A DNA stretch of 64,000 bases. Source: Candidatus Bathyarchaeota archaeon. Lineage in GTDB: Archaea; Thermoproteota; Bathyarchaeia; Bathyarchaeales; Bathycorpusculaceae. The translations under genes and the position numbers were made by a program. Below are positions 10,290 through 15,074 of this stretch, one piece after another. Below the pieces are notes generated by a model that was not told the origin of the DNA, did no database searches, and saw nothing but the letters and a program-made list of their open reading frames with translations. The number at the start of each line of letters is the position of its first letter. The stretch's first letter is position 1. The stretch spans positions 186,001-250,000 of the forward strand of contig JAOZHV010000026.1 in NCBI GenBank assembly GCA_026014725.1, in the 5' to 3' direction.

Positions 10290-11126
10290 ATGAAAAAGGG
10301 AACTTACACCTTGGTGTTAAGCATTTTAGTTGCCTTTTTGGCTGGAACACAAACCATACAAGCGCAACATACTGCTGGTGATCAAGCGTTTATCCTTGCT
10401 TCGCCACTAACCATAACCTCTCCAGCCAACACCACTTACAGTTCAGGATTGGTAACACTGAACATAACAGTCAAAACAATGCTAAACCCAAGCACCTCAA
10501 ACATAACAATGACGTACAGCATCAACGGAAAAACAAACACAACAATCAACACACAAACAACATTTGTGCCCATATGGGCAGAAATAACCTATGCTAACGG
10601 CACAAAAACCCAAGGCATCTCTATACAATCATACTACTTGATTTCGGCAATCGCAAATCTGCCAGAATTATCTGAAGGCTCACACAACATAACCGTGTAC
10701 GCAAAATACGATTTTTCAGCAGACTCACGCCAAATTGGATTTGACGAAAAAACAGTCTACTTTACAGTAAACGACGGCAAGCCGCCGACCATATCAAACT
10801 TGTCGCTTGAAAGCAAAACCTACAGCCAAAACGCTTTGCCATTAAACTTTACCATTGATCAGCCAACTTCGTGGATAGGCTATTCGCTTGATGGAAAAGA
10901 GAACGTTACCATCACTGGAAACACAACCCTTACAGGAATAGCCAACGGACAACACAGTTTAACAGTCTACGCTAACGATACCGCTGGAAACATGGGCGTT
11001 TCTCAAACAGTAAACTTCACCGTAGCGCTACCTTTAGACTTAAGCTACGCGGTAGCTGGCACAACAATTATTGCAGTGGCTGTTTCGGTTATTCTCTTGT
11101 TAAGAATTAAGGTTAGAAAAGAATAG
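10290..11126 (+). CDS. Secreted, membrane-anchored Ig-like domain protein
   Basis: The 278-residue protein starts with a signal peptide (MKKGTYTLVLSILVAFLAGTQTIQA) and ends with one membrane helix (about 249-272) and a short basic tail, so it is anchored with the bulk outside. The body has many NxS/T sites and two beta-rich repeats containing ITSPANTTYSSG and NDTAGNMGVSQTVNFTV, the pattern of archaeal Ig-like surface domains. ATG 10290 gives the compact signal peptide; ATG 10281 is possible. It converges with herA and overlaps its end by 27 bp. Function unknown, likely surface binding. Confidence 0.75.
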   Translation: MKKGTYTLVLSILVAFLAGTQTIQAQHTAGDQAFILASPLTITSPANTTYSSGLVTLNITVKTMLNPSTSNITMTYSINGKTNTTINTQTTFVPIWAEITYANGTKTQGISIQSYYLISAIANLPELSEGSHNITVYAKYDFSADSRQIGFDEKTVYFTVNDGKPPTISNLSLESKTYSQNALPLNFTIDQPTSWIGYSLDGKENVTITGNTTLTGIANGQHSLTVYANDTAGNMGVSQTVNFTVALPLDLSYAVAGTTIIAVAVSVILLLRIKVRKE

Positions 11127-12563
11127 CCTAGTCTCACCCATCGTCTTAACGTCTAAAGCGCGCACGCGGGCAACGATTGGAAAATCCCTAACAACCTTAC
11201 CCAAAGTTAAGCAATGATGAGGTGGCAAGTCACGTGCAATGCTGCGAACGGTTTCTGCATCCACGCGAGCGGCTCGGCTCACAACATCTAAATCGTGTTC
11301 ATTTGTGAAGTTGAATAGGAATATGTTGTCGGCTTGGCGGTAGATGGTTTCTTGGATGGTGTCAGGCTGGTTAGTTATGAACGTCGTGAATATTCCGTAA
11401 TGGCGCATGCGAGTCACGATATCATCCCAGTAAGTCTCACGCAGATACAAGTGGGCTTCCTCAGCAAACAAGAAAACTGCTTTGAGCTTCCAGCTTGAAA
11501 GAGAATCAACCAGTTTGCCCAAAACATATTCTACGACAATTTGGCGGTCAATGTTTGATGTGTTTTTTAAGTTAATGACTATAGCGCCGCCATGTTCCTT
11601 GGCTTTCAGCAAAGTCTCATCAAGGAGCGTTGCCTCACCAGGGCAGTCAGTGAAAAAACCCGAGTTAACAAACGAGTGAAAACGCGAAGCCAACGCGTCA
11701 CGCACATGCTGATTACAATTTAAATCACGGATCGCCTCGCCAAGTTCCTGCATTGAAAGTTTTCCGCGCTCTTTGAGCGATTTCCAAAGACGCCTAAACT
11801 CACGCGCAGAAGTCCCAGGCAAATGCAGCGCATTTACGAGTATACCCATGACTGTGTTTAGGTGCAATTGCTCGAGCGCCACTTTGAAATTTTGCGAAGG
11901 CGTGAGCGCGTGAATTTTATCGTAGTAGATGTTTCTTTTGCCGTCGTTAGTCATGCCCAGACTCGTGTACTCGCCATTCAAGTCGAAGATAACAACGGTT
12001 GCTTTAAAGCCGACTAGGTTCACCATCAAGAGCTTGGAGAGATGAGATTTGCCGCAGCCCTTCTTGCCCGTAATAATGTTTAATGTGCCATCGATTGAGG
12101 AGGCATCAATGGTGAGAAGGGTGGAGTCTTTGGTTCCGCCTAGAATTATGGGTAGTGTGCCATCGACTTTTGCCAGCTTCATAAGCATTGGAATGGAGAG
12201 TTTCTTTATTGTGGATTGCGAGCGACTCGGCAACCAACTGCTACTTGGGCTTAGCATCTCGTTCTGCAATGTGGCGCGGATTTTACAAATTAACAGGCTT
12301 GCATCTTGAATGTAGGTTATGTGTGGAGCGATTTCCATGGGGTCGATGTCTTCGCCTTGAAGCGGTTCGCCACCATCTGGGAGCGTGCGCAATAACTCTT
12401 CAAGCACACCTGGTACTGCGGCGAATTGGGCATCAATTACTTGGGCGATTAGTGCTTTGCCCGCATCCGCGTCTTCAACAAGTAGGTAGTCGCCTTTTTC
12501 TGCGCTCTCCGTGGGAAAACTGATGACTTGCAGGATGTTGCCTTCTTTTTTGTAGAGTTTCAT
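11100..12563 (-). CDS. herA: HerA-type DNA translocase/helicase
   Basis: The 487-residue ATPase is HerA, the hexameric translocase that works with NurA in archaeal DNA end resection. An N-terminal HAS-barrel-like region (1-100) precedes the RecA/FtsK-like core with Walker A GKKGCGKS at 166-173, IFDLNGEY at about 192 and Walker B AVFLFAEEAH at 362-371. TTFITNQPDTI fits the sensor region. ATG 12563 is chosen because it overlaps the nurA stop by 4 bp and gives the normal N-terminus. Mre11 and Rad50, frequent partners, are not in this window. Confidence 0.9.
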   Translation of the reverse strand: MKLYKKEGNILQVISFPTESAEKGDYLLVEDADAGKALIAQVIDAQFAAVPGVLEELLRTLPDGGEPLQGEDIDPMEIAPHITYIQDASLLICKIRATLQNEMLSPSSSWLPSRSQSTIKKLSIPMLMKLAKVDGTLPIILGGTKDSTLLTIDASSIDGTLNIITGKKGCGKSHLSKLLMVNLVGFKATVVIFDLNGEYTSLGMTNDGKRNIYYDKIHALTPSQNFKVALEQLHLNTVMGILVNALHLPGTSAREFRRLWKSLKERGKLSMQELGEAIRDLNCNQHVRDALASRFHSFVNSGFFTDCPGEATLLDETLLKAKEHGGAIVINLKNTSNIDRQIVVEYVLGKLVDSLSSWKLKAVFLFAEEAHLYLRETYWDDIVTRMRHYGIFTTFITNQPDTIQETIYRQADNIFLFNFTNEHDLDVVSRAARVDAETVRSIARDLPPHHCLTLGKVVRDFPIVARVRALDVKTMGETRLFFSNLNS

Positions 12564-13636
12564 GCATAAGCCTCCCCGCTTCCGAATGGCCCAAAGAGGA
12601 GTTTGTGCATGTCTGGTCGGTTGATGATTTGGATGCCGTGTTTGCGTGTGAGGAAATGCTTGATGGCTAAGACCTCGTTGGCAGTGAACGTGCAAAGAAT
12701 ATGCGATAGCCTGAGTGTTTCGGGGTAGCTTTGGCTGTAGATGTCGTTGCCGAGAAGCCTTTGGATAGCTTCAATTCGCTGAGAAAAGTCAGTTTCTTTG
12801 TCTATATCCAATCTGAATGCAATGTTTGCCTTGTTGAGCCTTGCCACGTAAACTTCACCTAACAGAACTTGGGGAGGTTTAGAGCGTAAGCCCACTGTCT
12901 CTAGTAAGTATGGTGGTTCTTGTTTTGGAAGCTGTTCAGTTATGAGGACACCGTTGGCGCGTAGTGTGGTTGCTTTGGAGAACGCTAAAACGGTTGTGTT
13001 GTTTCTTCTTGCGTAGCTGAGGATTTCTTTTAGGCGTTGTGCAGGAGTTTCAGGAGTACCAGACGTTAGGGAACCGTCAAAGAGGAGTACACCGTTGTTT
13101 ACGGTTTTTGCAAGCATGATTTGTAGCCAACGCTCCAGTAGACTGGCGAGTCTGAGGGGCATCTGCATGATGTTGGGAGCCGCTTGATGCATGCTACCGT
13201 AGGTTGTGCTAAAGTATGCCCGCTCAAGCGTATTGTAAAGTTGATTTTTGTTATCTTCAGTAATATGAAAAATGAAAGGTCCAAGCCGCGTGTATTTGTA
13301 GGTGCGGTTTTGCCGCCAAGTGGTTGCGCCCCTCACGGCGACTAACATGCCTGTGCTGGTTTCGCCGATTTTTATGGTTGAAGTGTCTATGGCGGCGATT
13401 ATTGTTTCTTGGTGGTCGGGCTTTAGGGTGATTGGCTGTTGTTTGAGCTGGAGGTTGTGGGGGTATTGCTCGGTCGTGTTTAGTTGTTGAAATTGCTGGT
13501 TTAGCTGTAAGGGTTGCTGTTGGACTTGCTTGAGTGAGTAGAGGCTTTGTTCTAGAAAGCGTTGTGGGAGGATTGTGTCTATGGCGAGTTGTGGAAAATT
13601 ATATTTGTTAGTAATTGTATATTGTTCAATCACCAT
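12560..13636 (-). CDS. nurA: NurA nuclease
   Basis: A 358-residue NurA-family 5'-3' nuclease. The metal-binding aspartates of the family fit D84 in IIAAIDTSTI and D187 in VLLFDGSL. The N-terminal region (about 30-70) is unusually rich in glutamine, reflecting an A/C-rich coding strand. The ATGA overlap with herA shows coupled synthesis of the complex that resects double-strand breaks. It diverges from the winged-helix gene at 13766 across a short symmetric intergenic region. Confidence 0.88.
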   Translation of the reverse strand: MVIEQYTITNKYNFPQLAIDTILPQRFLEQSLYSLKQVQQQPLQLNQQFQQLNTTEQYPHNLQLKQQPITLKPDHQETIIAAIDTSTIKIGETSTGMLVAVRGATTWRQNRTYKYTRLGPFIFHITEDNKNQLYNTLERAYFSTTYGSMHQAAPNIMQMPLRLASLLERWLQIMLAKTVNNGVLLFDGSLTSGTPETPAQRLKEILSYARRNNTTVLAFSKATTLRANGVLITEQLPKQEPPYLLETVGLRSKPPQVLLGEVYVARLNKANIAFRLDIDKETDFSQRIEAIQRLLGNDIYSQSYPETLRLSHILCTFTANEVLAIKHFLTRKHGIQIINRPDMHKLLFGPFGSGEAYA

Positions 13637-13765
13637 GATTCACCAATATTCAATAAATCTAATGGTGAAATATTTAAATATTGTGCATGCGCATCTTGCA
13701 CAATACAATATACAATAGGTGACAAATTGACAGATACCCCGCGAAACCAACCAATACGCGTAAAA
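13637..13765. promoter_or_regulatory. Divergent promoter region with nested inverted repeats
   Basis: The 129-bp gap between nurA and the winged-helix gene is dense in symmetry: TTCACCA near 13640 against TGGTGAA near 13663; the palindrome AATATTTAAATATT at about 13669-13682, a plausible TATA box for both strands; and TTGTGCA...TGCACAA with a 9-bp spacer at about 13681-13703. The 12-mer ACAATATACAAT at 13705-13716 is the reverse complement of 13614-13625 inside nurA. The arrangement suggests joint control of the two transcripts. Confidence 0.5.
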
Positions 13766-14134
13766 ATGAAAATAGGTGAAATTGAGTTCGAAATTGAAGC
13801 CCAACCAGACCAAATCCAAAGCACAGTCGATAAAATTCTATCCACTGTCACCGACCGCCTAAAAAACACTAACCTAAGCCAGATTGTGGAACGACCAGCA
13901 CCACCGCCAAGAGCTGAAACTTGCAGAGGTGTAATCACAAAACTATGGGAAGAAAACTGGTTTGGCGAGCCAAAAAGTCTCGATGAAGTGCACAGTGAAC
14001 TTGCACGACGCGGCTACCACTACGACCGAACCGCAGTCGCCCACGCGCTGGTTGATTTAGTCAAAGACAACGTGCTAACCCGCATCGGCAAACCACGTCG
14101 ATACCAATATGCACAAAAAAGACCACCAACATAA
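13766..14134 (+). CDS. Winged-helix protein divergent from nurA-herA
   Basis: The 122-residue product starts MKIGEIEFEIEAQPDQIQ. An N-terminal amphipathic region is followed by a proline-rich linker (RPAPPPRAET) and a C-terminal winged-helix domain: VITKLWEENWFGEPKSLDEV, ARRGYHYDRTAVAHALVDLV, LTRIGKPRRYQY. The frame is open back to 13562, but ATG 13766 gives a sensible N-terminus and leaves the shared promoter free. Either a regulator of the divergent operon or a DNA-associated accessory protein; no named family was recognised. Confidence 0.7.
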   Translation: MKIGEIEFEIEAQPDQIQSTVDKILSTVTDRLKNTNLSQIVERPAPPPRAETCRGVITKLWEENWFGEPKSLDEVHSELARRGYHYDRTAVAHALVDLVKDNVLTRIGKPRRYQYAQKRPPT

Positions 14135-14510: not shown

Positions 14511-15074
14511 ATGAGTAAACGAAAACCCATCATCAGCATTCAAAACATCGTAGCCTCAGTCTCACTTAACCAAAAAATAGACTTACAAAAAATAGTGGAG
14601 AAATTCCCACAAACAGAATACAACCCATCCGTTTTCCCAGGCTTAGTTTTCCGCCTCAAAAAACCCAAAACAGCTACCCTTATCTTCGGAACAGGCAAAA
14701 TGGTCTGCACAGGCGCTAAATCTGAAAAAGAATCCCGAAGCGCCGTAGAAAAAGTCGTCAAAGAACTCCGAAGCGAAGGCATACAGATCACAGAAAAACC
14801 AATCGTAAACATCCAAAACATTGTCGCATCCGCGGAACTAGGCGGAGAAATCGACTTAGAAAGCTTAGTCTACAAACTCAGCCGCGTAATGTACGAACCT
14901 GAACAGTTCCCAGGCGCAGTCTACCGCATGGACGAACCAAAAGTCGTCTTTCTTATCTTCAGTGCAGGCAAACTCGTATGTGTCGGAGCCAAAAAAGAAG
15001 AACAAGTCTACGAGGCAGTCGACAAAATCCAACAGCTTCTCGAAGAAAAAGAGCTCATCTACTATCCATCCTAA
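14511..15074 (+). CDS. tbp: TATA-box binding protein (TBP)
   Basis: The 187-residue protein is the archaeal general transcription factor TBP. The two saddle repeats are clear: ISIQNIVASVSLNQKIDLQKI paired with VNIQNIVASAELGGEIDLESL (the shared IQNIVAS begins at about residues 10 and 100), and FPGLVFRLKKPKTATLIFGTGKMVCTGAK paired with FPGAVYRMDEPKVVFLIFSAGKLVCVGAK (each abbreviated here by its FPG..CxGAK ends). Length and repeat spacing are normal. It converges with the nucleotidyltransferase gene with a 3-bp gap. Only one TBP gene lies in the window. Confidence 0.97.
   Translation: MSKRKPIISIQNIVASVSLNQKIDLQKIVEKFPQTEYNPSVFPGLVFRLKKPKTATLIFGTGKMVCTGAKSEKESRSAVEKVVKELRSEGIQITEKPIVNIQNIVASAELGGEIDLESLVYKLSRVMYEPEQFPGAVYRMDEPKVVFLIFSAGKLVCVGAKKEEQVYEAVDKIQQLLEEKELIYYPS

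Follow-up and report, generated by a model that had tools for sequence, protein, structure and literature searches.

The nurA-herA locus and the divergent winged-helix gene

The stretch of 64,000 nucleotides analysed here, which is termed the window, represents positions 186001-250000 of contig C26 (G000:C26) in a 2.56-Mb archaeal assembly. It contains the nurA and herA genes on the minus strand and, 90 bp from these genes and in the opposite direction, a gene encoding a winged-helix protein, which is termed wh. This divergent pairing, described in the initial annotation of the window, is confirmed. The linkage of wh with nurA-herA, a palindromic array in the promoter region between them and the role that wh may play are described here. 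The genes are arranged as follows.

11100..12563, minus strand: herA, encoding a HerA/DUF87 ATPase of 487 amino acids (aa)
12560..13636, minus strand: nurA, encoding a protein of 358 aa
13717-13722, plus strand: Shine-Dalgarno-like aggtga for wh
13727..14134, plus strand: wh, encoding a 135-aa protein with the recognition helix DRTAVAHALVDLV

The start of herA overlaps the stop of nurA as ATGA. The wh gene most likely starts at TTG 13727, because related proteins begin there too. The gene annotated initially is real, but its length of 122 residues, which corresponds to a start at the internal ATG 13766, is probably replaced by 135 aa when the likely start is used.

The window NurA scores 18.9 bits against Pfam PF09376, for which the curated cut-off is 21, and two relatives in its family exceed this cut-off with 33.5 and 30.5 bits. 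Its AF2 (AlphaFold2) model, with a pLDDT (predicted local distance difference test) of 85.8, matches Sulfolobus solfataricus NurA (2ygk) best in the PDB, with an E-value of 7.8e-9 and TM (template modelling) scores of 0.48/0.53. A TdpAB subunit (8wfd) and then Thermococcus kodakarensis HerA-NurA are the next matches, and endonuclease V is also listed. These matches indicate that the window NurA is predicted to assume the NurA (RNase H-like) fold. In an alignment of 37 sequences, D84, D187, Y304 and H312 are invariant and E168 is conserved in at least 90%; the Asp/Glu/Tyr/His set that we take to be catalytic is present in the window NurA. The window HerA scores 59.2 bits against PF01935 (DUF87; cut-off 23.2, E-value 8e-16). 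It remains below the cut-offs of the NCBIfam HerA equivalogs (21.5 versus 800 bits and 14.8 versus 970 bits), and is therefore a HerA-family ATPase that represents none of the named equivalogs. A second HerA-like ATPase, which scores 130.7 bits against DUF87 (versus 61.5 bits for the window HerA) and is followed by an Mre11-like start, is encoded on a 3.6-kb contig of the same assembly (L083, G000:C20:1-3579). This contig either is a stray one or represents a second set of HerA and Mre11 genes. The HerA of the distant relative G227 (L246:2062-4656, minus strand, 864 aa) has a P-loop that is apparently interrupted by an intein.

The wh protein consists of an N-terminal beta-beta-alpha segment (residues ~10-46) and a C-terminal winged helix (residues ~60-130). 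The AF2 confidence per ten-residue block is 73-91 for residues 61-130 and 67-69 for residues 11-40, so that the winged helix is modelled at fair to good confidence and the beta-beta-alpha N-terminus weakly. The window protein is below every Pfam and NCBIfam cut-off, including those of Penicillinase_R (PF03965; 16.9 bits, cut-off 22.6) and the replication terminator protein RTP (PF02334; 18.6 bits, cut-off 26.7, E-value 0.0028). Penicillinase_R, which is matched by 15 of 42 wh proteins at an E-value of 0.01 or better, gives the best Pfam match (E-value 0.00065). The PDB fold matches are generic winged helices, namely those of Fur, BlaI/MecI, Hop2 and Z-alpha. The winged helix of wh superposes on that of Hop2 (2mh2) with a Z of 10.2 and a root mean square deviation of 1.8 over 64 residues. 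Kinship with Hop2/TBPIP is no more than a lead, because the PDB sequence match reaches an E-value of just 0.089 and the fold match is tied with those of the generic winged helices. With respect to a viral origin, no relative of the wh profile is detected in a scan of viral contigs.

Linkage of wh with nurA-herA

Among 201 genomes of the class, a strong wh (E-value of 6e-13 or better) is detected in 74 and the window-type NurA in 116. Both are present in 72 genomes, wh alone in 2, nurA alone in 44 and neither in 83 (hypergeometric p of 5e-21, calculated over related genomes that are not independent). Of the two genomes with wh alone, one contributes a 33-residue fragment from the end of a contig. 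The other (G099, L093:1733-2541) represents a deletion scar, in which the 3' part of herA is joined directly to wh and both nurA and the promoter are missing, owing to either a deletion or an assembly error.

The divergent arrangement is observed in all 30 loci tested first, and in all 72 distinct class loci that remain for alignment after removal of 12 duplicates from the same genomes and the contig-end fragment L123. The gap between the genes of these 72 loci is 87-155 bp, mostly ~90 bp. The best 80 of 183 named relatives, which are labelled Candidatus Bathyarchaeota, Bathyarchaeia or Bathyarchaeum, with a few labelled 'uncultured archaeon' or 'Crenarchaeota archaeon', contain a divergent nurA in 76 cases; of the other four, three are records that begin less than 200 bp from wh and one is a deletion scar. 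In the window's genus, 7 of the 26 sampled genomes contain wh, this nurA and the operator described below, and 19 lack all three. For 16 of these 19, the listed completeness is 90% or higher. Another NurA is detected by Pfam in two of the 19 (G120 and G141), and one further NurA accompanies the window-type NurA in G102 and G165.

When 398 genomes of the phylum are searched with a profile of 42 wh proteins, matches are obtained in 111 genomes, of which 105 are strong (E-value of at most 1e-20). For 92 of these 105 genomes, wh is divergent from, and within 600 bp of, a NurA of the window's family. Inspection of the remaining 13 adds seven genomes in which the divergent partner of wh belongs to a second NurA-HerA type (G213, G220, G227, G234, G241, G248 and G255; their loci include L245 and L246) and one (G437) in which this partner is a nurA fragment at the end of a contig, nurA being split over contigs. 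The other five comprise three genomes with wh on the same strand as second-type NurA-HerA (G005, G011 and G018), the deletion scar of G099, and G210, in which no NurA is found on the 3.2-kb contig that contains wh. Linkage of the wh family with herA-nurA in other genomes, for which the initial annotation proposed a neighbourhood survey, therefore stands: nurA accompanies a strong wh in 72 of 74 class genomes, and 100 of the 105 phylum genomes have the divergent arrangement. The association of wh with nurA-herA is real, widespread and specific. Archaeal amoA is detected in 9 of 27 tested wh-positive genomes outside the class, and these nine are therefore probably ammonia oxidisers.

Another arrangement is found among 20 hand-chosen stretches of the class (L063-L082), of which 18 contain nurA and the other two contain wh without nurA. 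A clear wh relative is located directly upstream of nurA on the same strand in 7 of the 18 (L063-L067, L077 and L080). Six give weak wh matches alone (E-values of 0.004 to 3e-12; L070, L074, L075, L079, L081 and L082), and five give no wh match within 1 kb (L069, L072, L073, L076 and L078, of which L072 is cut close to nurA). The E-values of this search lean towards a match, because the profile was built from these loci themselves. In several lineages, tandem wh-like paralogues are located near nurA-herA. Those at L041:3322-5226, L245:3857-5366 and L246:7099-8110 have a similar N-terminal segment and different winged helices.

It is extremely unlikely that wh is functionally unrelated to nurA-herA and that a bidirectional promoter is merely shared by descent. 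Divergent gene pairs are often kept, and the close kinship of the genomes inflates the counts. However, the two genes are jointly present or jointly absent within one genus (7 genomes with both and 19 with neither), they are neighbours in both orientations and with both types of NurA-HerA, the association is spread over the phylum, and the operator tracks the recognition helix of wh, as described below.

The mre11 and rad50 genes are not part of the nurA-herA operon at this locus, but are located on the same contig as the window, ~75 kb from nurA-herA. The description of the gene pair as being without mre11-rad50 is therefore correct for the neighbourhood, but not for the genome. In 61 named relatives, the sequence extends 1.3 kb or more beyond herA. 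Nine of these have mre11 past herA on the same strand (seven at ~0.6 kb and two at 2-3 kb), and wh is still divergent on the opposite side in these nine. The hint that wh replaces Mre11-Rad50 is rejected, because the genome carries both genes and mre11 follows herA in these nine relatives.

The other neighbours of the locus that were scanned are Nudix, TATA-binding protein (TBP), nucleotidyltransferase and tRNA-thiolation-like genes. The TBP gene is located just past wh (14511-15074, plus strand). It is matched solely in the loci of the window's own genome (L001 and L002) among 31 short loci, and is therefore not a part of the module within ~1.5 kb on each side. HerA matches the PADLOC models for HerA and the mad8 ATPase (best E-value 1e-16), and no PADLOC model is matched by NurA or wh at an E-value of 0.01. 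A defence island is unsupported, since neither the PADLOC scan nor the scanned neighbours provide defence-type partner genes.

The palindromic array in the predicted shared promoter

The elements between and within the ends of the two genes are as follows.

13614..13625, plus strand: 12-mer ATTGTATATTGT in nurA codons, overlapping the nurA-side site
13622..13629: nurA-side site TTGTTCAA, within nurA codons
13671..13680: palindromic TATA-like box TATTTAAATA, a putative promoter element whose position suits both genes
13681..13703: predicted operator, a dyad TTGTGCATGCGCATCTTGCACAA with three TGNNCA hexamers
13704..13716: CAATA-type operator extension TACAATATACAAT, containing the mirrored 12-mer copy 13705-13716
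13705-13716, minus strand: second copy of the 12-mer ATTGTATATTGT, in the wh leader

The 12-mer in nurA codons and its mirrored copy in the wh leader, to which the initial annotation drew attention, exist as described, with 2 matches in 64 kb versus 0.01 expected. As a symmetric element of the promoter, this mirror holds in its TTGnnCA[AT] part, which is conserved, but not as an exact 12-mer pair, which is not conserved among relatives. The features common to relatives are TTGnnCA[AT] in nurA codons and the TATA box with the TTGYGCATGnnCA...TGnnCAA dyad. The palindromic TGNNCA operator just past the palindromic TATA box, which was absent from the initial annotation, is the main element, and the nurA-side TTGnnCA[AT] is the conserved part of the mirror. 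The latter site is kept in 58 of the 72 loci, and its middle residue varies (mostly Glu, also Gly and Ala).

The consensus of the 72 aligned gaps is TATWTAA followed by TTGYGCATGnnCAnnWTGnnCAATWCAATAnnCAA, in which many columns are invariant or nearly so. The core pattern is present in 65 of the 72 loci. Of these 65, 62 have a TATA-like match that begins precisely 11 bp ahead of the core; no TATA-like match is obtained for the other three by the pattern used. A stricter form of the operator is found in 61 of the 74 class genomes with a strong wh, versus none of the other 127, and 61 of the 62 strict sites are located directly in front of wh (backwards control, 0). The sole site away from wh (G185:C98:1770-1792) is a second site in its genome.

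The operator is also nearly unique in the window's own genome. The perfect dyad is present in one copy in the 2.56-Mb assembly, with none at one mismatch and the next best at two mismatches. With a position weight matrix of the operator, the window site scores 41.0 versus 7.7 for the best site elsewhere. At three mismatches, 163 sites versus 110 in the backwards control represent a modest excess. A wide regulon for the full dyad is unsupported, given the single perfect copy. Within the window, the dyad pattern at two or fewer mismatches would not stand out by itself (found once versus 0.67 expected by chance); its weight comes from conservation.

The repeated unit of the array is the palindromic TGNNCA hexamer. 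The 72 class gaps contain 285 copies versus 108 in shuffled sequences (z 17.5), and 20 distant loci of the phylum contain 72 copies versus 22.9 expected (z 11.9), with a spacing of exactly 9 bp between successive hexamers in 28 of 52 cases in the phylum set. The highest z among four other palindromic hexamer patterns is 1.6, so that none of these is clearly enriched.

The conserved dyad is very unlikely to be a post-transcriptional element that folds as an RNA hairpin in the leader of wh instead of serving as an operator in DNA. Its arms can pair, it overlaps or precedes the likely start of wh transcription, and both inner arm pairs are kept in 46 of the 65 core-bearing loci. At least one inner pair is broken in the other 19, however, and the hairpin is disfavoured for this reason. 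A hairpin also does not need the self-palindromic TGNNCA units, which are often spaced by 9 bp in distant families, and a similar site is located in nurA codons on the opposite side.

The recognition helix of wh varies in parallel with the operator. The helix is DRTAVAH in nearly all of 71 class wh proteins and is present as related variants in 20 proteins of the phylum, and its His and the following Leu are invariant in all 91 of these proteins of the divergent kind. Ten co-directional and seven paralogous wh relatives have a different recognition helix, and the 10 co-directional loci contain 0.6 TGNNCA per region, with a background of 0.7-0.8. This joint change of operator and recognition helix provides the strongest evidence for wh reading this site.

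Probable function of wh and comparison with known systems

These results suggest that wh is probably a dedicated local transcription regulator of nurA-herA, which would autoregulate through the TGNNCA array in the shared promoter; a conserved palindromic operator in the shared promoter is found here, as in autoregulated divergent repressors. Of the two roles proposed initially, that of a dedicated regulator is better supported, by a near-exclusive conserved operator, a matching recognition helix and a fixed divergent geometry. That of a new part of the resection complex retains some probability, because in other families wh relatives adjoin nurA-herA even where the operator is absent.

We infer from the sequences that wh would bind the array of TGNNCA palindromes, the start of which directly follows the shared TATA box. 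Because the operator starts there, bound wh would prevent the initiation complex from assembling at the wh promoter, which would result in autorepression. The same site, together with the second TTGnnCAA site in the initial codons of nurA, would set the level of nurA-herA. The operator is located directly upstream of the TATA box when read towards nurA, where TFB would presumably sit, and co-repression is therefore the simplest expectation. On nurA-herA, wh would most likely act as a repressor rather than an activator, and this repression would be relieved when more end resection is needed.

Several observations weigh against this role of wh as a regulator. The window-type nurA is present without a strong wh in 44 of the 116 class genomes, and 16 of the 109 phylum genomes with a strong NurA lack a strong wh. 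The core pattern is missing from 7 of the 72 aligned loci (L045, L047, L048, L104, L106, L113 and L114), and the strict operator from 13 of the 74 genomes with a strong wh. Co-directional wh relatives adjoin nurA-herA without the operator, and their adjacency therefore has another cause; several of these genes follow other genes, so that the true promoter is possibly located further up, although no match to the class operator is found in the whole stretches scanned. The single TATA box may not serve both directions as assumed, and a different factor may read the hexamer array, or the array may act partly in RNA, as the inner arm pairs kept in many loci would allow. In addition, the genomes and loci counted are related and do not represent independent events.

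The co-directional loci also bear on whether wh is instead a DNA-binding accessory subunit of HerA-NurA for end recognition or loading, with the operator serving just autoregulation, which is unlikely. Adjacency without the operator and in another orientation (the 7 of 18 chosen nurA loci), tandem wh-like paralogues beside other NurA-HerA pairs, the joint absence of wh and this nurA from 19 of the 26 genus genomes, and the superposition of the winged helix on Hop2 are consistent with such a subunit. However, a conserved operator, an invariant recognition helix and a fixed divergent geometry are typical of a regulator, and the Hop2 match is tied with those of Fur and other winged helices.

It is quite unlikely that wh has a double role, controlling nurA-herA and also working within the HerA-NurA machine, such that HerA-NurA lifts wh and switches its own genes on. 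In this case, wh would dock on HerA or NurA with its N-terminal segment and at the same time hold the operator with its winged helix, and free or DNA-engaged HerA-NurA would pull wh off the array. The locus would then represent a one-locus damage-response loop in place of the Orc1-2 network of Sulfolobales, and the tandem wh paralogues elsewhere would represent duplicated versions of the same loader or sensor.

Thus, wh is most likely a private regulator of nurA-herA. It belongs to a conserved family, the window member of which is below Pfam and NCBIfam cut-offs, and its nearly one-site regulon makes the prediction sharp. The pair of wh and its array provides a testable candidate regulator-operator pair in Bathyarchaeia and amoA-bearing archaea.

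The enzymes themselves resemble NurA-HerA of hyperthermophilic archaea (Sulfolobales and Thermococcales), with the NurA fold and its acidic, Tyr and His residues and the HerA DUF87 ATPase in common. According to excerpts of the literature, nurA-herA of hyperthermophiles is usually located in one operon with mre11-rad50 (PMC7690668, PMC9905601), and the herA-mre11-rad50-nurA operon of Saccharolobus is induced by NQO (4-nitroquinoline 1-oxide) through an Orc1-2 network (PMC10470591); TFB3 is described as a co-regulator of this operon (PMC9905601). An excerpt on Nitrosocaldus lists the enzymes without a neighbour gene (PMC5797428), and nurA and herA are named in a figure legend (PMC7554672). Within such excerpts, the control of archaeal DNA-end resection that is described is the damage network of Sulfolobales. 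No winged-helix or regulator partner of nurA-herA is mentioned in titles and abstract starts among the matches listed for the open literature. Unlike the hyperthermophile loci, the window locus has a private divergent winged-helix gene with its own predicted operator.

Among winged-helix proteins, Fur/Zur and other regulators give some of the best fold matches to wh (Z ~9-11 over ~70-75 residues), but the winged helix alone is matched, and the 135-aa wh ends there without the C-terminal Fur domain. RTP shares a weak profile resemblance with wh, but wh is below its cut-off, and the site of wh is located in a promoter and is found once in the genome in its perfect form. BlaI/MecI (Penicillinase_R) resembles wh in several respects: its winged helix binds a palindromic site in a divergent promoter, its Pfam family is weakly similar, and the fold match has a Z of 8.6. 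It differs from wh in that the window protein is below the Pfam cut-off and in that the extra beta-beta-alpha segment of wh is N-terminal, whereas the dimerisation domain of BlaI is C-terminal.

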